Positions 1 through 10,912 of a stretch of DNA of 64,000 bases are shown in pieces. The position numbers and the translations under genes are program-made. The DNA is from Microbacter margulisiae (GTDB lineage: Bacteria; Bacteroidota; Bacteroidia; Bacteroidales; Paludibacteraceae): the NCBI RefSeq assembly GCF_014192515.1, contig NZ_JACHYB010000002.1, positions 1,248,187 through 1,312,186 on the forward strand, read 5' to 3'. The number at the start of each line of letters is the position of its first letter. The stretch's first letter is position 1. A model generated the notes under the pieces. That model did not search any database and was not told the origin of the DNA. It saw only the letters and a program-made list of their open reading frames with translations.

Positions 1-483
1 AGCGTATTTCCACACACAGTAGTTCAAACTTGTGTGGTGCATCAAATCCGCAATTCAATTAAATATGTTGCAAGTAAAAATCAGAAAACGTTCATGAAAG
101 ATTTGAAGCTTGTTTATCAAGCAGTAAGCAAAGAGCAGGCAGCAATCGAACTCGATAATCTTGATTCAAAGTGGGGAAAGGATTATCCAATTGTCATTAA
201 ATCATGGCGTGATAATTGGGAAAAACTAACCGCTTATTTTGAGTTTTCTGATGCTATCCGAAGAATCATATATACCACCAATACCGTAGAAGGCTATCAC
301 CGTCAGATAAGGAAAGTTACCAAAAACAAAGGTGTTTTTACCAATGATACAGCATTGGAAAAATTGGTGTATTTGGCCTATCGCAATATCCGGAAAAAAT
401 GGACTATGCCTCTGTCAAACTGGGGGTTAACTGCACAACAACTGGCGATTAAATTTCCTGAAAGGTTTAATTTATTTGAATAA
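1..483 (+). CDS. IS256-family (Mutator-type) transposase, C-terminal part
   Basis: The reading frame is open from base 1, so the gene is cut by the window edge; about 160 C-terminal residues are visible. It begins with a segment matching the IS256 pattern (VQTCVVHQIRNSIKYV). Further on is TTNTVEGYHRQIRKVTK, which carries the conserved glutamate of the DDE catalytic triad. The two catalytic aspartates would lie upstream, outside the window. The protein would cut and paste its own element. The visible part shows no frameshift or stop, so the element may be intact. The family call is secure; whether it is active cannot be judged. Confidence 0.88.
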   Translation, partial: SVFPHTVVQTCVVHQIRNSIKYVASKNQKTFMKDLKLVYQAVSKEQAAIELDNLDSKWGKDYPIVIKSWRDNWEKLTAYFEFSDAIRRIIYTTNTVEGYHRQIRKVTKNKGVFTNDTALEKLVYLAYRNIRKKWTMPLSNWGLTAQQLAIKFPERFNLFE

Positions 484-571
484 AATCACAACATCAAATA
501 AATATCCAGGCATTTTTCTTAGTTTTGCTTCCACCCAACAAAACGATGGTGAAACTTTGTGCCATTGTAAT

Positions 572-608
572 AAAAAACGATTAGGGGGTCGACCCCTAAC
601 CGTTTTTG
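572..608. terminator. Strong GC-rich hairpin flanked by A and T runs
   Basis: The arms read AAAACGATTAGGGG and CCCCTAACCGTTTT around a short GTCGA-type loop, with one bulge or mismatch. A runs on the left and T runs on the right make it a plausible intrinsic terminator in both directions. It lies about 90 bp after the IS transposase stop and would also stop transcription arriving from the minus-strand peptide genes to the right. Confidence 0.55.
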
Positions 609-777
609 CCCAACAAAACTCAGGATCTTCATTATCCATTATAAAAAATCGGATTAATTGAGTATCTGAAATTTGATAAGAATTGAAACTGACACAGTTT
701 ATTTTACGCTACCGAAAATAGATCAATTAAAAGCCAAGTAATTACAACGAACACAATCACTTTACATATTCATAGAG

Positions 778-945
778 TTAGAACAATTCTACTATCGCCC
801 TAAAAAACCAGACGTTATCAATCCATTGACGAACTGTTGCTCCGGCACTGTATCCTGCAGCATAGGTCGCTACGCTGCCACCATTAACATCAAACAATTC
901 TTGATGAGTCAATTCAGGCATGCCTATATTTTCAAATGTTTTCAT
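778..945 (-). CDS. Small double-glycine-leader peptide (55 aa), bacteriocin-like, second gene of the pair
   Basis: A 55-residue gene starting ATG at 945 and ending TAA at 778. The first 23 residues form a classic double-glycine leader, ending ELTHQELFDVNGG. The 32-residue core after GG is small-residue rich (SVATYAAGYSAGATV) and ends hydrophobic and aromatic (WFFRAIVELF). The core contains GYSAG, a GxxxG motif. In known systems a C39-peptidase ABC transporter cleaves after GG and exports the core; no such transporter is in the window. It lies 28 bp downstream of the similar gene at 974-1132, in the same direction, so the two are probably one transcript. The last 16 leader residues align without gaps with those of the neighbour. 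The product could be a bacteriocin or a signalling peptide. The leader is clear; the role is inferred. Confidence 0.7.
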   Translation of the reverse strand: MKTFENIGMPELTHQELFDVNGGSVATYAAGYSAGATVRQWIDNVWFFRAIVELF

Positions 946-973
946 AAGTACACATGTTTATTTGTTAGAGAAC

Positions 974-1132
974 TTACTTTATTCCAAAAATGCCATTACA
1001 AAATCCTTCTACATAATCAAACCCGTTTACAATTGCGGTTTTAATTTCTTGCAAAAACCCTCCTTCAAAACTTTTCATTTCCATTTCATTCAGTTCGCTT
1101 ACGCCACAGGCGTTTAAATCAAAACTTTTCAT
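974..1132 (-). CDS. Small double-glycine-leader peptide (52 aa), bacteriocin-like, first gene of the pair
   Basis: A 52-residue gene starting ATG at 1132 and ending TAA at 974. The leader is about 25 residues and ends GVSELNEMEMKSFEGG, close to the leader pattern common for Bacteroidetes GG-peptides. The 27-residue core starts FLQEIKTAIVNG, holds a single cysteine, and contains GFCNG, a GxxxG motif, before ending IFGIK. GxxxG in both partners is typical of two-peptide (class IIb) bacteriocins, where it mediates helix pairing. It is first in transcription order, about 130 bp after the stop of the MutS-like gene on the same strand. No immunity or export gene is visible on the right; any would have to lie beyond the IS element to the left. 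A self-signalling peptide is the main alternative. Confidence 0.7.
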   Translation of the reverse strand: MKSFDLNACGVSELNEMEMKSFEGGFLQEIKTAIVNGFDYVEGFCNGIFGIK

Positions 1133-1260: not shown

Positions 1261-2280
1261 TTAACTTTCTTTGTTTTCATCAGCAAAAACCACCTTGTTC
1301 TTATCCATGTTTCTTTGTCCTTTCCCCAATGTAACTGTTGTCTCATAAGCTTCGGCAACAGTTTCGGGCGGATAATGGTAGAGCTCCAGGATACGAATGG
1401 CGTTTCGTTGGGTCATAACGCCTTTTTTCAGTTTATAATCGAATGCAAGCTCTGCCCCATTGATTTGCTCGCTAAAATGATAAAGATCGTATTCATTTTG
1501 CAGCAGCTCTGCCAGTTCAAGGTCATGCGTGGCAATCAATACCAGGTTGTTCCCTGTATTCAGCGCAGAAAGCACAGCTTTACCTGCCGCAATCCGTTCC
1601 GTTGTATTGGTTCCCTTAAATAGTTCGTCCAGCAGGAAAAGAGATGAGGCAAGTTTTTCGGTTGCTTCGATCATCTCTTTCACAGTCAATACCTCCTGCA
1701 GATAGTAGCTCCGGGCATTCATCAGGTCGTCGCTGATTTGAATAGAGGAAAAGATCTGCATGGGTGTCAGATGAAAGTTTTTAGCAAAACAGGTATGAAT
1801 GGTTTGTGCCGTCAGTACATTGATGGCTACCGTCCGGATAAAAGCCGTTTTTCCCGACATGTTCGAGCCGGTAAGGATAACGGACTTTCTCCGGTTGGAA
1901 AAATTGTTGGAGATGCACGCTTCGATCAACGGATGGTACATATCGACGGCTTCAATGCATTTGGGTTCTGCCGGTGACGGATGGCAATAATAGGGCAATC
2001 CTGCCCACAAAGAGGCAATGGAACAGAGCATGTCAACATCTCCGACAAACCGGTATACCTGTTCTATTTCACGGTGTTGCCGGTTGAAAAGTTTCATCAC
2101 ATCCAGCAACGTATTTGGCTCAAGCAGGAAAAAACAGCGGATCAATTCGCTGATAATAAAAAACACAACGGATAGGTCGGCATCCAGCTTGACATCAAAA
2201 CGGAACAAGATACCGTCCAAAAAACTGTGTAAATAGAAATAAATGATTCTTTCTCCAAACATTTCAATGATCTTTGGCAC
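1261..2280 (-). CDS. MutS-family ATPase domain protein, short form
   Basis: About 339 residues. The C-terminal half is a MutS ATPase domain: Walker A TGSNMSGKT (about residues 137-145), Walker B LFLLDELFKGTNTTER, and the D-loop/H-loop region ending VLIATHDLELAELL. The N-terminal 130 residues resemble part of the lever/clamp region, and no mismatch-recognition domain is present. Related short MutS-like proteins of Bacteroidetes are usually longer, roughly 440-600 residues. The frame is closed by a stop just upstream (2290-2292), with only a GTG at 2280 or an ATG at 2262 as start. It may therefore be a naturally short protein or a 5'-truncated gene. Its role is not mismatch repair in the strict sense and remains unknown. 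Confidence 0.75.
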   Translation of the reverse strand: MPKIIEMFGERIIYFYLHSFLDGILFRFDVKLDADLSVVFFIISELIRCFFLLEPNTLLDVMKLFNRQHREIEQVYRFVGDVDMLCSIASLWAGLPYYCHPSPAEPKCIEAVDMYHPLIEACISNNFSNRRKSVILTGSNMSGKTAFIRTVAINVLTAQTIHTCFAKNFHLTPMQIFSSIQISDDLMNARSYYLQEVLTVKEMIEATEKLASSLFLLDELFKGTNTTERIAAGKAVLSALNTGNNLVLIATHDLELAELLQNEYDLYHFSEQINGAELAFDYKLKKGVMTQRNAIRILELYHYPPETVAEAYETTVTLGKGQRNMDKNKVVFADENKES

Positions 2281-3400: not shown

Positions 3401-3466
3401 AAATGAATAAAAGGTGGCGCTGGTTTGAATCTTTGAAAGTAAGTGGATTAAAAATCCTAATAATAC
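3401..3466. repeat. Direct repeat A, left copy
   Basis: About 66 bp beginning ATGAATAAAAGGTGGCGCTG is repeated with few changes, in the same orientation, at 4645-4715. The two copies form the outer pair of repeats around the RAYT transposase. See the right copy and the inner repeats B. Confidence 0.75.
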
Positions 3467-3661
3467 AGCCACGACAGGAGTAGCCAACGTGCAGACCTCC
3501 GCCAAAGCCCGCACCACACTGGCCGCTAATGCGAAAAAGAAACGCGAATATTTGGCTGGCTCCCCATGCCATACGATAGAGCAATATAATCACATGCAAC
3601 CCCTCCGGGGTATGGTTGGTTTTGCGTGGAGCATATTTCTATTGATATGCAAGTCCTGACG
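3429..3661 (+). pseudogene. Possible remnant of a coding region, unidentified
   Basis: After a stop at 3426-3428 a frame stays open and reads like a real C-terminal protein segment: KWIKNPNNTATTGVANVQTS, then AKARTTLAANAKKKREYLAG, before running into repeat B. GC content is higher here than around it. No start codon fits. The right copy of repeat A encodes a related but diverged segment (ESKRIKNRNNTVATG). I do not recognise the family. It may be the decayed end of a gene broken by the repeat insertion. Confidence 0.3.
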
Positions 3662-3842
3662 GACTAAATGTGCGGCAGATGTGGGATGTTTCGATGCTTG
3701 TGAGTACATAGCAAACCTTTTGCCCGAAGGGCATGGCAAAAGATCGTAAACATGCAACATGTCTTTGCCCGTAGGGCATTCATATCAATAGAAGAACGAT
3801 GCAATAAATAGATATAATGCCCGTATGGGCATTCACAACATT
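3597..3842. repeat. REP-like repeat B, left copy, with several small palindromes
   Basis: About 245 bp made of short hairpins: CCCCTCCGGGG, TTTTGCCCGAAGGGC, TGCCCGTAGGGCA and AATGCCCGTATGGGCATT. It recurs in direct orientation at 4323-4562 with about 85-90% identity over its core. Such clustered palindromes next to a single-tyrosine transposase are typical of REP/RAYT systems. Small frames on the minus strand here are products of the repeat, not genes. Confidence 0.75.
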
Positions 3843-3857
3843 CAACAAACATTTATT

Positions 3858-4319
3858 ATGGCAAACACATACACCCAAATCTACATTCATTACGTCTTTG
3901 CCGTTCAAAACCGGCTGGGTCTGATACAAAATCGCTGGCGTGACGATTTGTATAAATATATGTCGGGTACAATAGCAAACAAAGAACACAAGCTACTTGC
4001 TATGGGTGGAATGCCCGATCACGTTCATGTGCTGGTAAGCATGTCGCCCAAACAATCGCCGTCCGATTTGATGGCGGATGTCAAGCGGAGTTCTTCGTTA
4101 TGGATCAACGAAAATCGCTTTGTGATGGGAAAATTTGCTTGGCAAGAGGGATATGGCGCATTTAGTTATGGGAAATCTCAGATTCATGATGTGGCAAATT
4201 ATATTGAAAGGCAGGAGCAACATCACAAAAAGCAGACATTCATGGAAGAGTATCTCGAATTTCAACGACTCTTTGAGATTGAACTTGATGAACGATATGT
4301 TTTCAGACAGATAGAATAA
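3858..4319 (+). CDS. REP-associated tyrosine transposase (IS200/Y1 family)
   Basis: 153 residues from ATG 3858, beginning MANTYTQIYIHYVFAVQNR; an upstream in-frame ATG at 3825 lies in the repeat and is less likely. It carries the HUH metal site MPDHVHVLV and the Y1 region WQEGYGAFSYGKSQ, whose tyrosine attacks single-stranded DNA, then the typical tail YIERQEQHHKKQTF...IELDERYVF. The protein would bind and move palindromic single-stranded DNA. It is embedded between direct repeats of hairpin-rich DNA (3597-3842 and 4323-4562), its likely substrates. No accessory TnpB is present. It appears intact. Confidence 0.88.
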   Translation: MANTYTQIYIHYVFAVQNRLGLIQNRWRDDLYKYMSGTIANKEHKLLAMGGMPDHVHVLVSMSPKQSPSDLMADVKRSSSLWINENRFVMGKFAWQEGYGAFSYGKSQIHDVANYIERQEQHHKKQTFMEEYLEFQRLFEIELDERYVFRQIE

Positions 4320-4322
4320 TGT

Positions 4323-4562
4323 GCAATCCCTCCGGGGTAGATGGGTGTTGTTACGACATTCATCTATTGATATGTAAGTCCTAACGGACTAAATGTGTAG
4401 CGAATTTGGGATGTTTCGATGCTTGTGAGTACATAGCAAGCCTTTTGCCCGAAGGGCATGGCAAAAGATCGTAAACATGCAACATGTCTTTGCCCGTAGG
4501 GCATTCATATCAATAGAAGAACGATGAATAAACGGATATAATACCCGTAGGATATTCACGTT
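4323..4562. repeat. REP-like repeat B, right copy
   Basis: Direct copy of 3597-3842. It retains the CCCTCCGGGG, TTTTGCCCGAAGGGC and TGCCCGTAGGGCA hairpins. The last palindrome is decayed (AATACCCGTAGGATATT against AATGCCCGTATGGGCATT on the left), which suggests the left copy is the intact form. Confidence 0.75.
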
Positions 4563-4644
4563 CATGCGCATCCTCCATGATGGGAATTCCTTCGAGATGG
4601 ATTTATTGATAGATACCCTGTTCATTTGGATCTGTCAATGATTA

Positions 4645-4715
4645 AATGAATAAAAGGTGGCGCTGGTTTGAACCTTTGAAAGTAAGCGGATTAAAAATCG
4701 TAATAATACAGTTGC
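4645..4715. repeat. Direct repeat A, right copy
   Basis: Same orientation as 3401-3466, with several base changes. The order A-B-transposase-B-A with all copies in direct orientation is not a simple tandem duplication. The following 120 bp up to the next gene are AT-rich, with a possible promoter. Confidence 0.7.
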
Positions 4716-4759
4716 AACGGGATTCCAAAAATCCCGTCACACAACGCAGTATTTGATGA

Positions 4760-4837: not shown

Positions 4838-5983
4838 ATGAATAGATTAGTTTTAATTGGAAATGGATTTGATCTTGCCCATGGTCTTCATACCTCATAT
4901 TCTCAATTCATTGACAATATGTGGAAAAAAATCATTGATAAACTTTTAATAAACTGTCGATATGATGATCAATTCTTCACTTTTACTATAAAGGGTATTT
5001 CTGGAGACATATTATGCGCTAATCAATTAAGGAGTAATTCTTTCGACAATATATCTATCAAAGATTATGTGTCATTTCAGAAATGGATTAAAGATTATGA
5101 GACAAGTTTTCAAATCGAATACAAAATAAAAAACCGATTCTTTAATCATTTGACGAATAAAATTGGGAAATTAGAGAATTGGGTAGATATAGAAGAAGAA
5201 TATTATAAATTTCTGAAATATCCTGTTATAGAAAATGGCGACCAAGCTTATAAATATCCTGGTGGCGTAACTCAATTAAATGAAGATTTTAAGCAGATAA
5301 AACAAGCTTTGAATGAATATCTGGGTAGTTTGTTGCGAACCAAAATAAAAAAAGATACAACAATAGACAAGATCATAAAGTCAGATTTTGGAGATCATGA
5401 TTTTGCGTTGAATACGGAATTTCAAACCGACAAAATAGATAAAGAAAAAGCGCCAGAATCAACAGTTATTTTAAACTTCAATTATACACCATTGGAGACT
5501 TGTTATCTTCCTGATGATTCGGATGTAATTCATATACATGGCAAAGTTAATGACTCTAAGAATCCCATGATATTCGGATATGGAGATGAAATGGATTCTG
5601 ACTATTCAGAAATTGAAAAGCTGAATGACAATGAATATTTGGAAAATATAAAATCAATAAGATATTTTCATACAGACAATTACAAACGTCTTCTTGGTTT
5701 TATGAATATGGATTATTATCAAGTTGTCATTTTAGGACATTCGTGTGGAAATGCAGACAGAACCTTATTAAGCACATTATTTAATCATCCAAAATGCATT
5801 TCGATCAAACCATACTATCATGAAATTATTAAGAAAAATGATTCAACCGGGGAAAAGACGCATGAAGATAACTATATTGATATCATTCAAAATATTTCAC
5901 GCCATTTTTCCAATAAATCAGTGATGAGAGATAAAGTAGTGAGTAAAATTTATTGTTCTCCCTTTAGCACTACCATTCTATAA
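4838..5983 (+). CDS. AbiH-family abortive-infection protein
   Basis: 381 residues. It opens with the family signature MNRLVLIGNGFDLAHGL followed by TSYSQF, seen in AbiH proteins, which block phage infection by an undefined suicidal mechanism. Later family marks are ILNFNYTPLE (about residue 210), IHIHGKVND, PMIFGYGDEMD and VVILGHSCGNADR; the latter segments suggest a nucleotide-binding, SIR2-like arrangement. The protein has no signal peptide or membrane segment and is probably cytosolic. It is a lone gene between the RAYT repeats and an MscS channel and is clearly more AT-rich than its neighbours, which fits horizontal transfer. AbiH usually acts as a single gene, so the missing partner is expected. 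The family call is strong; the antiphage role here is inferred. Confidence 0.85.
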   Translation: MNRLVLIGNGFDLAHGLHTSYSQFIDNMWKKIIDKLLINCRYDDQFFTFTIKGISGDILCANQLRSNSFDNISIKDYVSFQKWIKDYETSFQIEYKIKNRFFNHLTNKIGKLENWVDIEEEYYKFLKYPVIENGDQAYKYPGGVTQLNEDFKQIKQALNEYLGSLLRTKIKKDTTIDKIIKSDFGDHDFALNTEFQTDKIDKEKAPESTVILNFNYTPLETCYLPDDSDVIHIHGKVNDSKNPMIFGYGDEMDSDYSEIEKLNDNEYLENIKSIRYFHTDNYKRLLGFMNMDYYQVVILGHSCGNADRTLLSTLFNHPKCISIKPYYHEIIKKNDSTGEKTHEDNYIDIIQNISRHFSNKSVMRDKVVSKIYCSPFSTTIL

Positions 5984-7028: not shown

Positions 7029-8087
7029 ATGGACATTGAATTTCAAAATACAGAAAAAGACTACAAAAGTTTTTATGTATTTTATTACAAGAATGCACTT
7101 CGGAAAAACATTTTTATTTTAATCCTAATACCTTTATCTATTGGCTATATTGTTGCTGGACAACCTTTTGCCTTGACAACGTTTATTGATGGTGTAATTA
7201 TTTCTGCACTTCTCTTTGTTGGCAGTTTTTATGTCGTGCCGTATTTAATCTCAATACATAATCTAAATAAAGCAATATTGAAAGACCCTTGGTATTTAGA
7301 GAAAAGGAAACTAAGCATAACCGATGAGGGTATATATTGTGAAACTGACACAATAAGCGGCATCTGGAGATGGGAAAGTATTGTTTCTTTTGAATTTAAT
7401 GATGAGTTTCTTGCACTTATACTTGCCGATAAGAAATTCTATTTAATTCCGCAAAAAGCATTTCCATCCAATGCCGAAGCTATAAATTTTCTTGGAATCA
7501 TTCAAAGCAAAGTCATTAAACCAAGAGGGACAATTAAGCCTTTATTTGCAACAGCAGACAAAAAACCACCATATTTATTAGGTCTTATTTGTTTAATTCC
7601 ATTGATCGGCGCATTTATAGGTCTGGTATTCATTATTTTGGGAGTAACAAGATTTAAAGACAAATGGTTTACACTGATTGGCGTATTTGGAATCGCATTT
7701 ACGATTATTATTTATTCGACACTTTTCTATACTAACAAGCATTCTTTTAAAAATGAATTACGAGCATTATCCCAAACGGAACTTAATGACTTAGTAAAAG
7801 ATATAGAGTTTTATAAGTTAGAAAATGGGCAATATCCAGACAGTTTACAACAACTCACAAAAGATAATAGTAATGATTTTATATTTGATCCGGTTCAAGC
7901 AAATCAAAGAGGGAAAAATAGTTTATTTTATTATTTAAAAGTAGGTGATAAGTATAGATTATTTTCTAAAGGTGAGGATGGAATTCCATATACGAAAGAC
8001 GACATATATCCTCAAGTGTCAGACAAAGTAGTCAGTAAAATTGGATTGATAAGATATGCGTTGAATCCGGATACAGTAAACAAATGA
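7029..8087 (+). CDS. Membrane protein with YcxB-like region and pseudopilin-like C-terminal domain
   Basis: 352 residues. Hydrophobic helices lie at about 26-48, 52-75, 183-208 and 213-236. Residues about 95-165 (LSITDEGIYCETDTISGIWR WESI, ...KKFYLIPQKAF) resemble the YcxB-like domain, a small beta-rich module of unknown role. The C-terminal ~100 residues (LVKDIEFYKLENGQYPDSLQ; then YRLFSKGEDGIPYTKDD) read like the globular part of a type II secretion pseudopilin (GspG-like), placed after a membrane helix. I know no defined function for this combination. The gene is AT-rich and bracketed by short repeats, so it may be a mobile cassette. The start ATG at 7029 fits; the domain names are tentative. 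Confidence 0.5.
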   Translation: MDIEFQNTEKDYKSFYVFYYKNALRKNIFILILIPLSIGYIVAGQPFALTTFIDGVIISALLFVGSFYVVPYLISIHNLNKAILKDPWYLEKRKLSITDEGIYCETDTISGIWRWESIVSFEFNDEFLALILADKKFYLIPQKAFPSNAEAINFLGIIQSKVIKPRGTIKPLFATADKKPPYLLGLICLIPLIGAFIGLVFIILGVTRFKDKWFTLIGVFGIAFTIIIYSTLFYTNKHSFKNELRALSQTELNDLVKDIEFYKLENGQYPDSLQQLTKDNSNDFIFDPVQANQRGKNSLFYYLKVGDKYRLFSKGEDGIPYTKDDIYPQVSDKVVSKIGLIRYALNPDTVNK

Positions 8088-8112
8088 TAAATAAAAACCC
8101 TGTTTAGCACCC

Positions 8113-8458: not shown

Positions 8459-10912
8459 CTACCAATGCACCTGCATTTCGTTGTCATTGTCAGGGAAGGA
8501 GACGCTCAATACATGCTTTGTGTCAAATGGCCCATAGTCGGCAAAAGCAAAATGACTTGTAAAGAAGCGTATCTCTTCCGGCGTGACTGTTTTTGCAGCG
8601 CCGTTGACCGTCAGATGTTGTACCTCTTCCGGTGTGAAGCCATGCAGCACCAATGTGATGACATGAAACCTTGAGGTAAAACTCCCTTCCTTCTTGCCAA
8701 AGGTAAGCATTGCCTGTTGTGGGTCGTAGCTGATCAACCGTTTGTAATAATGTCCCGATTCATATTTGTACGTTGTCCCGTCATCCTCGTAATAACGGTA
8801 TTGATTCGGTTGTTGTCCCTCATAGAGGTTGATAAACAGGGTATCGCCACTGTTGTCGGCTGTCGATTCTACCAGCTTCTGCATCGGAATGATGCTCCCT
8901 GCCTTCACGTACAACGGCAAACGGTTCAGTTCCGAGTTTGCCACAATCACTTGCTTGCCGGCATAAGGTTTATCATTGAAAAGGTCATACCAGTTCCCTT
9001 CCGGCAGATAGACCCTGCAAAGGGATTCCGTCCCTTTTACGGGAGCCACCAGGATGGAAGGCCCGAAAAGATATTCCTGCTGGAATTCGGGATCATAAAT
9101 GGTAGAATCGTTCGTATAGTTAATGGCCAGTGACCGGTTAAGCGGCATCCCGTCCTGTGACGATTCATAAAAGCCAGCATAAATATAAGGGAGCAACTGA
9201 TAACGGAACCCGATATAACGGCGGGCAATATCTTCACATGTCTCCCCGAAATCCCAGGGTTCTTCCCGGTTGGAGTTGATCGTGGTATGAGCCCTGTACA
9301 TCGGAAGGAAAGCCCCGATCTCCATCCAGCGGGTGTAGAGGCTCTGGGTAGGATTGCCGCTGAATCCGCCCACATCCATTCCTGCAAAAGTAACACCTGA
9401 TAAACCCAGGCTGTTGATGAGGCGGACACCCAACAACATATGGTCTTCCTTGGCCTGGTTGTCTCCTGTCCAGATCGCTGTATAACGTTGTAATCCCGAA
9501 TAACCTGAACGGCTCAGTACAAAGGGACGCTTGCCATCCATGTATTTCTTTGCTCCTTCATAGGTGCTTCGTGCCATCTGGAATCCATATACATTCTTTG
9601 CCTGCCGGTAAGTAGTGTGTAATCCATCCCAGTTCAGGTTAAGCAAGTCGGGCACTTCCTTTCCCCAGACCGCTATTTCGTTCATGTCGTTCCAGAATCC
9701 GGTTACTCCTTCGTCGGCATAGGTCTTCACCCATCTGCCCCACCATGCACGCGTCTTTGGCATGGTGAAATCAGGGAAGTTACACCATCCCGGCCATACC
9801 TGTCCTGCATAATTGGTTCCATCGGGGTATTTGATAAACAGGGACGAATCCACTCCCTGCTGGTAAACAGGATAGTTCTTGGCAATCTTGACCCCCGGAT
9901 CGATGATCACGGCCAGATGCATCCCCATCTTCTGCAATTTTCCCGTCATGGCTTTCGGATCGGGGAAACGGTTCGGATCCCAGGTGAAAATCTTATAATG
10001 ATCCATATAATTGATGTCCAGATAGATCATGTCAATGGGGATATGCCGTTCCCTGAACTTGGCAGCCGTTGAGAGCAGGTCGGCTTCAGGGAAATAACAC
10101 CAGCGGCATTGCTGGTACCCTAAGGACCAGATGGGAGGAATAGGAGTGCGTCCCGTAAGCCAGGTGTAGGAACCGATGATCCCTTTTACGGTAGAATGAT
10201 AAATAAAATAGTAATTCATCTCCCCGCAACTGGCCCTGAAGTAGTCAAAACGATTGCTACCGGCGCCAAAACTGAAGAGGCTGCGCGATGAGTTGTCCAT
10301 AAAGATGCCATAGGCCAGGTGATCGTGCAATCCCATATAAAAAGGAATGGTGGAGTACATCCTGTCGCTGGCATCATCGTATTCGGGATTATCCGTGTTG
10401 TAATTCACGCAGGCTGTCCCTGCACGATCGAGGTTTCCTCCGTGTTCTCCCATCCCGATGAAACGTTCTCCCGGTTGCAGGGTCTTGTATGTGGTGACTT
10501 CTTCTCCGAGCCATGAAGTGCCGAAAGCCGGATCATCGGCATTGATCACTTCTCCTGTTTTTGTCAGGAAGGTGAATCGTAGCGGATCTTTGGTAATACG
10601 CAATGTAACCGAGTCGGTTGAAATGGTGTAGAGCCCTTTGGCGTCTGTCACCTGAACGTGGCAGGCTTCGGGCTTCACTTCAACGGCATAACTGAAGTCC
10701 GGGGCAAAAGCCTGGTGTGCAACCCGGATACGGATGACACCCGGAGAATAAACTGTCACTTGTGCCCTGCCGTTTGTGGTCAGAAAGGTGTAGGTGGAAT
10801 GCGATACTTCGATCTTTTTCACATTCCCCAGCGGACTGTTAGCCGGTACCTGCCCTTTCATATTCGGATACAGAATCCCTAACAAAATCCAAAGTAAATA
10901 GTAGCGTTTCAT
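8459..10912 (-). CDS. GH31 alpha-glucosidase-family enzyme, secreted
   Basis: 817 residues. The N-terminal signal peptide is MKRYYLLWILLGILYPNMKG. The order is an N-terminal GH31 beta-sandwich (to about 255), the (beta/alpha)8 barrel, and C-terminal beta domains from about 600. The catalytic nucleophile is Asp409 in GFWNDMNEI and the acid/base is Asp484 in WTGDNQA. Further marks are PIDMIYLDINYMD and GLSGVTFAGMDVGGF. It removes alpha-linked glucose (or a related sugar) from non-reducing ends, probably in the periplasm. It stands divergent from hddA with a 309-bp gap, and a -7 box TACATTTG sits about 100 bp upstream. It is only distantly similar to the PA14-GH31 at 39.7 kb and lacks PA14. Substrate could be starch-type glucans or N-glycans. 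Confidence 0.9.
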   Translation of the reverse strand: MKRYYLLWILLGILYPNMKGQVPANSPLGNVKKIEVSHSTYTFLTTNGRAQVTVYSPGVIRIRVAHQAFAPDFSYAVEVKPEACHVQVTDAKGLYTISTDSVTLRITKDPLRFTFLTKTGEVINADDPAFGTSWLGEEVTTYKTLQPGERFIGMGEHGGNLDRAGTACVNYNTDNPEYDDASDRMYSTIPFYMGLHDHLAYGIFMDNSSRSLFSFGAGSNRFDYFRASCGEMNYYFIYHSTVKGIIGSYTWLTGRTPIPPIWSLGYQQCRWCYFPEADLLSTAAKFRERHIPIDMIYLDINYMDHYKIFTWDPNRFPDPKAMTGKLQKMGMHLAVIIDPGVKIAKNYPVYQQGVDSSLFIKYPDGTNYAGQVWPGWCNFPDFTMPKTRAWWGRWVKTYADEGVTGFWNDMNEIAVWGKEVPDLLNLNWDGLHTTYRQAKNVYGFQMARSTYEGAKKYMDGKRPFVLSRSGYSGLQRYTAIWTGDNQAKEDHMLLGVRLINSLGLSGVTFAGMDVGGFSGNPTQSLYTRWMEIGAFLPMYRAHTTINSNREEPWDFGETCEDIARRYIGFRYQLLPYIYAGFYESSQDGMPLNRSLAINYTNDSTIYDPEFQQEYLFGPSILVAPVKGTESLCRVYLPEGNWYDLFNDKPYAGKQVIVANSELNRLPLYVKAGSIIPMQKLVESTADNSGDTLFINLYEGQQPNQYRYYEDDGTTYKYESGHYYKRLISYDPQQAMLTFGKKEGSFTSRFHVITLVLHGFTPEEVQHLTVNGAAKTVTPEEIRFFTSHFAFADYGPFDTKHVLSVSFPDNDNEMQVHW

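Follow-up and report, generated by a model that had tools for sequence, protein, structure and literature searches.

Introduction

Antibacterial peptides of two-part design are best known from lactic acid bacteria; cationic, amphiphilic helices are the usual trait of class IIb, and the plantaricins have double-glycine (GG) leaders, a type of leader that serves pheromones too. Every class IIb bacteriocin characterized to date is described as having GxxxG or GxxxG-like motifs (PMC6382864). The proteins PlnI and PlnL, which protect the producers of plantaricins EF and JK, are described as Abi-related (PMC8538875), and the angicin locus is reported to include a gene of the CPBP family (PMC8692603). 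For Bacteroidales, the class II group named in the literature is that of the bacteroidetocins (PMC10352776). According to a commentary (PMC12648078), class II bacteriocins of Bacteroidota are among the predictions of a pipeline from 2025, and individual peptides like those described below may therefore already be catalogued. Among the titles and abstract openings listed by literature searches, none described two-peptide GG bacteriocins in Bacteroidota. The conserved unit of two peptides and a CPBP gene, together with its likeness to plantaricins E and K, looks new.

The DNA analyzed here, referred to as the window, is a stretch of 64 kb at the end of contig C2 (G000:C2:1248187-1312186) of the 3.56-Mb genome of a Bacteroidales bacterium. 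It contains a pair of short genes, A and B, which is real and is part of a recurring unit. We consider it probable (roughly 0.6) that A and B together make up a class IIb-like bacteriocin of two peptides, for which CPBP proteins provide immunity. The initial annotation had put forward a two-peptide bacteriocin or a signaling pair; the former interpretation gains from the recurrence of the pair, the CPBP and C39 genes of the loci and the likeness to plantaricins E and K, and it is weakened by the lack of a matching exporter in this genome.

Results and Discussion

Two tandem genes with double-glycine leaders

Peptide A is encoded on the minus strand (window 974..1132) as a precursor of 52 aa that starts with ATG and consists of a 25-aa GG leader and a 27-aa core containing YVEGFCNG (MKSFDLNACGVSELNEMEMKSFEGG then FLQEIKTAIVNGFDYVEGFCNGIFGIK). 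The precursor of peptide B (778..945, minus strand, ATG start) has 55 aa, namely a 23-aa GG leader and a 32-aa core with AAGYSAGATVRQWIDNV (MKTFENIGMPELTHQELFDVNGG then SVATYAAGYSAGATVRQWIDNVWFFRAIVELF). The two frames stand in tandem with a spacing of 28 bp; their leaders align without gaps over the last 16 residues and carry hydrophobic residues at positions -4, -7, and -12. The core motifs are GFCNG in A and GYSAG in B, and the cores have one cysteine and none, respectively. What the initial annotation had reported of the pair (strand, sizes, spacing, leader alignment, core lengths, and a GxxxG in each core) was confirmed.

A scan for GG leaders, which used the same three hydrophobic positions as its rule, returned two ORFs in the 64-kb window, namely A and B in tandem. 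In 60 dinucleotide shuffles of the same sequence, such ORFs numbered 0.38 on average per shuffle and never formed a tandem pair. In a search of the host genome with a 20-row leader profile, A and B were the sole peptides at E <= 10.

The motif GxxxG arises by chance in 35% of residue shuffles of core A and in 6% of those of core B, and the argument from it is weak by itself. Among the cores of relatives it was present in 26 of 52, compared with 14.2 expected from residue shuffles, where the rows are non-independent and the reading of P0003 and P0004 with alignment gaps slightly lowers the expectation. The cores are neutral or acidic (net charge -1 for A and 0 for B), and their best hydrophobic moments are unexceptional, being reached by 7% and 36% of shuffles. 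In both respects A and B depart from the cationic, amphiphilic helices of class IIb, and an argument from amphipathic helices, the prediction of which the initial annotation had suggested as a check, was dropped because the moments do not exceed those of shuffles.

Neither peptide reaches a curated cut-off of NCBIfam or Pfam. The best sub-threshold profiles for B were TIGR03949 (lactobin A/cerein 7B; 17 vs. 21.5 bits), which is passed by one A-type relative (L155, 24.6 bits) but not by A or B, and PF10439 (Bacteriocin_IIc; 17.6 vs. 27.1 bits). For several members of the group, class IIb families (cerein and lactococcin G alpha/beta) are the nearest ones in NCBIfam, with scores that are mostly under the cut-off, and NCBI names the Paludibacter relative P0007 as a cerein-family bacteriocin of class IIb.

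Recurrence of the ordered pair in Bacteroidia

Single-sequence searches brought few relatives. Peptide A is 85% identical over its full length to P0003, a protein of 52 aa from a 663-bp contig, and its leader is nearly identical to that of P0004, which has a different core. Peptide B retrieved itself alone from the protein set, and searches of the family (300 genomes for each peptide) gave largely noise for it. On plasmids there was no match for B and one chance-level match for A (E 10), and viral contigs gave no match to the leader pattern. The 20-row leader profile retrieved 54 proteins at E <= 0.01, including 50 new ones, 39 of which have a leader of the form KNLDL..VQEMN and highly diverse cores. 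The DNA pattern of the leader occurred in 31 stretches of named genomes, eight of them matching solely inside a long unrelated frame.

An A-type GG peptide followed by a B-type GG peptide, always in this order, was found in seven Bacteroidia loci. Besides the window, these are the loci of Pedobacter yonginense (L110:1181-1357 and 1372-1536), P. petrophilus (L104:5449-5625 and 5285-5446, minus strand), Paludibacter G135 (L071:8986-9183 and 9208-9420), G589 (L155:8138-8311 and 7929-8093, minus strand), G331 (L166:9012-9203, minus strand, with a B-type stretch at about 8701-8820 that has no in-frame ATG), and G674 (L167:8997-9158, a middle peptide, and then 8646-8810, minus strand, making three peptides in a row). 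Gaps measure 2-44 bp in directly adjacent pairs without a broken frame. Of the outcomes that the initial annotation had named as refuting, none came about in full, with the reservations that one relative (L166) has a B frame that appears damaged, the frame being intact in the other six pairs, and that the host lacks an exporter of the pair-associated clade.

The A-type cores share approximately the motif [FY]VEGFxxG, to which those of L104, L155, and L166 are loose fits, and the B-type cores share GYxxGxxV[RK]. GxxxG occurs in both peptides of five of the six pairs with an intact B frame and in neither peptide of L104. In single comparisons, window B agreed with the B-type peptide of L155 in 44% of 45 aligned residues (E 4e-8), and window A was 33% identical over 52 residues to the A-type peptide of L155 (E 4e-7) and 36% identical over 56 residues to that of L110 (E 3e-5). 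Since the A and B motifs were drawn up after the loci were known, the weight is borne by a small out-of-sample test, in which a three-row B profile was run over 395 Bacteroidia genomes. It matched six, four of which were new; the remaining two were the host genome and G589, itself a source of the profile. The new matches in G331 and G674 have B-type cores, each with an A-type peptide upstream. Two others were dropped as B-type peptides, that of G400 for matching by the leader alone and that of G659 (E 0.009) for lacking GYxxG in a match that reaches the core.

The same data bear on the possibility that A and B are two independent one-peptide bacteriocins or microcins that have GG leaders, lie side by side, and each act alone. 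Among the relatives' GG peptides one conserved leader commonly precedes very different cores, as in P0004, and peptide arrays occur in Paludibacter and other Bacteroidia, including the three peptides in a row of L167; these observations suit independent peptides. This explanation is nevertheless unlikely, given that seven loci with diverged sequences repeat this combination of core types in one order, and that the B-type cores are similar to single members of two-peptide bacteriocins.

Further features of the relatives were noticed. In the G589 locus (L155:7739-9494), a run of seven GG peptides lies upstream of one HlyD/C39/TolC set, and two of these peptides, GIIGLVLTVAGIICNYYGV and GAIGTILCIAGAICNFLGL, are closely alike. 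The Paludibacter-type GG peptides (P0001, P0003, P0004, and P0005-P0051) combine a near-fixed leader with highly diverse cores, and their sequences suggest a shuffling of leaders and cores, P0004 apparently representing the leader of A on another core. The B-type peptide of Paludibacter G135 (L071:9208-9420) is near-identical to P0052, filed by NCBI under a Weeksellaceae metagenome bin; this may reflect transfer or mis-binning.

Likeness to plantaricins and other described systems

When the B profile was compared with 177,635 PDB sequences, the top two matches were PlnE and PlnK, at weak E-values of 0.075 and 0.18, neither of which is significant singly. A profile of the cores only retained PlnE (E 0.084) and lost PlnK. 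Searched singly against the PDB, P0054 had PlnK as its top match (E 0.032), and window B retrieved neither plantaricin. The A-type profile, built on a short alignment as core-only MAFFT alignments of the A-type peptides were misaligned, did not retrieve PlnF or PlnJ from the PDB; a longer A profile retrieved carnobacteriocin B2 alone, via its leader (E 0.011).

Gapless scores against the PlnE and PlnK segments were then compared with 1,000 residue shuffles, the segments having been chosen because the profile matched them. The score of window core B for the PlnE segment was reached by 0 of 1,000 shuffles, and six of the seven B-type cores stood at p 0.001 for one or both segments, the exception being that of L110 (p 0.13 and 0.09). 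Among the A-type cores, the lowest values were those of L155 for PlnE (p 0.006) and of window A for PlnK (p 0.024), the other five being >0.09. A weak resemblance of the B-type cores to plantaricins E and K is suggested by these scores, and it includes the pattern GYxxGxxVRxxxD common to window B and PlnE and the pattern GYxxGYxxGAV common to P0054 and PlnK.

At the level of the locus, the likeness to plantaricins EF and JK lies in an adjacent pair of genes, in short cores (unmodified in our proposal), in GxxxG, and in genes of the Abi/CPBP type, as these systems are described in PMC4985602, PMC8538875, and PMC6854853. GG leaders are a further common trait. The systems differ in that A and B come from Gram-negative hosts and have neutral or acidic cores, that relatives of A and B have C39-HlyD(-TolC) export genes, and that the A-type peptides have no similarity to PlnF or PlnJ detectable in the PDB search.

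With the bacteroidetocins A and B share the GG leader, a Bacteroidota host, and, in pair-bearing relatives, an ABC exporter with a double-glycine peptidase domain (PMC6671954). The bacteroidetocins are described there as having leaders of 15-16 aa, two or more cysteines, self-inhibiting producers, and in most cases a thiol oxidoreductase, whereas A and B have leaders of 25 and 23 aa, one and zero core cysteines, and CPBP neighbors. Based on the leader length and cysteine count given in that account (PMC6671954), identity with bacteroidetocins was rejected.

An insertion element separates the pair from CPBP and TolC genes

The region to the left of the window was covered by the stretch L003 (G000:C2:1238000-1257000). 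An element of the IS256/Mutator type, about 1.5 kb long, lies just downstream of peptide B on the plus strand (L003:9386-10899; its right part is window 1..712; PF00872, E 2.6e-97). It encodes a transposase of 404 aa, the ORF of which ends at window 483, and is bounded by inverted repeats that are imperfect. On the right it is adjoined by the 9-bp direct repeat CGAAAATAG (window 713..721, L003:10900-10908) and on the left, outside the window, by an exactly matching copy of that repeat (L003:9377-9385). This exact target-site duplication on both flanks marks a clean insertion.

Three genes on the strand of the peptides follow beyond the element: CPBP1 (L003:8562-9287), a CPBP-like protein of 241 aa that matches NF052640 far under the cut-off (E 9.8e-11) and no Pfam family at E <= 0.001; CPBP2 (L003:7780-8493), a CPBP protein of 237 aa over the cut-off of PF02517 (E 2.8e-7); and a TolC-type protein of 441 aa (L003:6444-7769; PF02321, E 1.9e-55). 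Both CPBP1 and CPBP2 retain the Abi motifs EExxxR, FxxxH, and HxxxN. The element thus lies between the peptides and the CPBP-CPBP-TolC genes, partners that the initial annotation did not see because the left edge of the window hid them. It had suggested looking for C39 transporters past that edge; CPBP and TolC genes were found there, and the single C39 transporter of the genome lies about 505 kb away.

The insertion point lies within an intergenic hairpin, toward its top. One arm is at window 732..755 (minus strand) and the other past the element (L003:9323-9346); joining the flanks to rebuild the empty site gives a hairpin of 97 nt with an MFE of -34.2 kcal/mol (z -6.9, 300 shuffles). A dispersed element was rejected as an explanation of the hairpin, since a search of the genome that allowed up to 3 mismatches gave the two arms and no further copy.

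A second IS256-type element, with a broken transposase frame, ends near the A-B pair of G331 (L166:7139-8420). It is convergent to the pair, an orientation also seen in the window, and its DNA identity with L003:9386-10899 is about 70%; the right ends of both elements abut CGAAAATA, perhaps by target preference. One insertion event common to both loci was dropped from consideration in view of this 70% identity and of the left flank in L166, which has no CGAAAATA repeat.

CPBP genes as putative immunity genes

A counterpart of CPBP1 with 77% identity was present in G121, one of the seven other members of the genus, and a weak partial match (E 3.9e-6) in another of them, G033; within the family, CPBP1 had matches in three of 250 genomes, the host's own counted. 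CPBP1, CPBP2, and part of TolC align with G121 at 78.6% DNA identity, on a contig that begins exactly at CPBP1 and on which the full TolC frame was not seen. The dN/dS values against G121 were 0.27 for CPBP1 and 0.25 for CPBP2. Among the seven other genus members, the A-type profile had no peptide match and a single-sequence search with peptide B stayed at noise level (E at least 0.69).

Proteins of the CPBP family over the Pfam cut-off are encoded next to the pairs, on their downstream side, in five of the seven loci (L110, with three, L071, L104, L167, and the window, with CPBP2), and L155 and L166 have no CPBP match. Among the 41 scanned loci, 31 hold scan-positive GG peptides, and CPBP was present in three of the 24 among these without the pair (L112, L153, and L154; Fisher p 0.006 against 5/7), a comparison in which the loci are unequal in length, some come from one genome, some have other kinds of GG peptide, and part of the training set of the scanning profile came from these loci. 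In several relatives' CPBP proteins ETxxxQ replaces EExxxR, and one has no such motif; protease activity therefore need not be general. We regard CPBP1 and CPBP2 as candidate immunity proteins for A and B.

Their presence also bears on the possibility that A and B are a secreted signaling pair, that is, peptide pheromones exported by C39 transporters and sensed by a regulator. Small HTH-like proteins are encoded near the peptides in L071, L104, L112, and L167 (that of L167 just under the Pfam cut-off for HTH_11, 23.2 vs. 25 bits; that of L104 without a Pfam match), and two-component genes were noticed by eye near GG arrays without the pair in L068 and L069. In the loci with the pair, inspection of the ORF listings by eye gave no gene of a histidine kinase or receptor, and CPBP genes come after the pairs instead. 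A signaling role thus appears quite improbable.

Export of the pair and the state of the window copy

The initial annotation had suggested looking for C39 transporters near homologs, and in this respect the relatives and the host differ. A C39-type exporter is encoded near four of the seven pairs: C39 and HlyD domains were found by Pfam in L071, L155, and L167, L155 also having TolC, and the ABC part of an exporter was found in L104 within the stretch covered. These loci resemble export of the colicin V type, for which a PCAT, a membrane fusion protein, and TolC are described (PMC10352776), whereas in the genome of the window just a TolC adjoins the CPBP genes. Identity among the four pair-associated exporters is 55-66%, and their identity to the C39 protein of the host is 31-32%. 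The single C39 transporter of the host, beside a radical-SAM/SPASM gene, does not belong to the pair-associated clade, and a search without a positive control did not find an HlyD of the Paludibacter type in this genome.

That single transporter is part of a separate RiPP-like locus (L002:8798-13478), which combines it with the radical-SAM/SPASM gene and a GG precursor of 48 aa whose last residues are NGVCLNKC. As it is the sole C39 transporter found in the genome, A and B might be regarded as RiPP precursors of this radical-SAM/C39 system. We rejected this identity as highly improbable: L002, about 505 kb away, has a GG precursor of its own with a different leader, and leaders of the A/B type accompany exporters of the HlyD/C39 type in relatives.

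With the putative unit split and an exporter of the pair-associated clade lacking in the host, its copy of A and B may be silent for want of expression, may depend on export in trans, or may be an orphan. An orphan relic in the strict sense would consist of genes that are intact by chance, were severed from their exporter and immunity genes by the insertion and a segment duplication, and are functionless now. The insertion with its 9-bp duplication, the adjacent duplicated MutS-like fragment, the failure to find a matching C39 or HlyD in the genome, the lack of A-type matches in the seven other genus members, and the TolC frame not seen in full in G121 are all in line with such a relic. Against it are the intact frames and leaders of A and B, the 85% identical relative of 52 aa elsewhere, and the dN/dS of about 0.25 of the CPBP genes, and we regard it as a serious but doubtful possibility. 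It concerns the state of the window copy, not the identity of the system, and its odds therefore overlap with those of a two-peptide bacteriocin.

Proposed mechanism and significance

For the two-peptide bacteriocin that we favor, the following course can be proposed. A C39-type ABC exporter would remove each leader after GG, and the two short, unmodified cores would meet at the target membrane. There, the small-residue GxxxG faces of both cores may let the helices pack together, and the packed helices, in combination with a membrane receptor, would make the target membrane leaky. The producer would be protected by the two membrane proteins of the CPBP/Abi type. In this genome, the putative A-B-CPBP-CPBP-TolC unit would have been split by the IS256-type insertion in the upper part of the intergenic hairpin.

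It is conceivable, at somewhat less than even odds, that Bacteroidota harbor a widespread and unrecognized branch of two-peptide bacteriocins of the plantaricin EF/JK type, with immunity by CPBP intramembrane proteases, colicin V-like export, and uncharged peptides. If so, Bacteroidales would gain a second class of class II bacteriocins, with a recognizable partner rule and immunity genes, which could be searched for by a three-gene signature (an A-type GG peptide, a B-type GG peptide, and CPBP). A class of weapon described from Gram-positive bacteria would then also operate among Gram-negative ones, across the outer membrane. This would raise the questions of how an uncharged pair of peptides traverses that membrane and why lactic acid bacteria have CPBP immunity in common with Bacteroidales.

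Other features of the window

Beside the peptides, a MutS-like gene (window 1261-2280, minus strand) contains, chiefly at 1337-2209, a duplicated fragment of 873 bp that is 99.1% identical to part of an open frame of 541 aa at another place in the genome (L088:8969-9841). Farther on, at window 3401-4722, an IS200-like (Y1) transposase gene (3825-4319, PF01797) lies between long direct repeats (164 nt at 95% and 79 nt at 90%), an arrangement that resembles a REP-associated transposase unit. It is followed on the plus strand (window 4838-5983) by a gene for an abortive-infection protein of the AbiH type (PF14253, E 9.3e-30).
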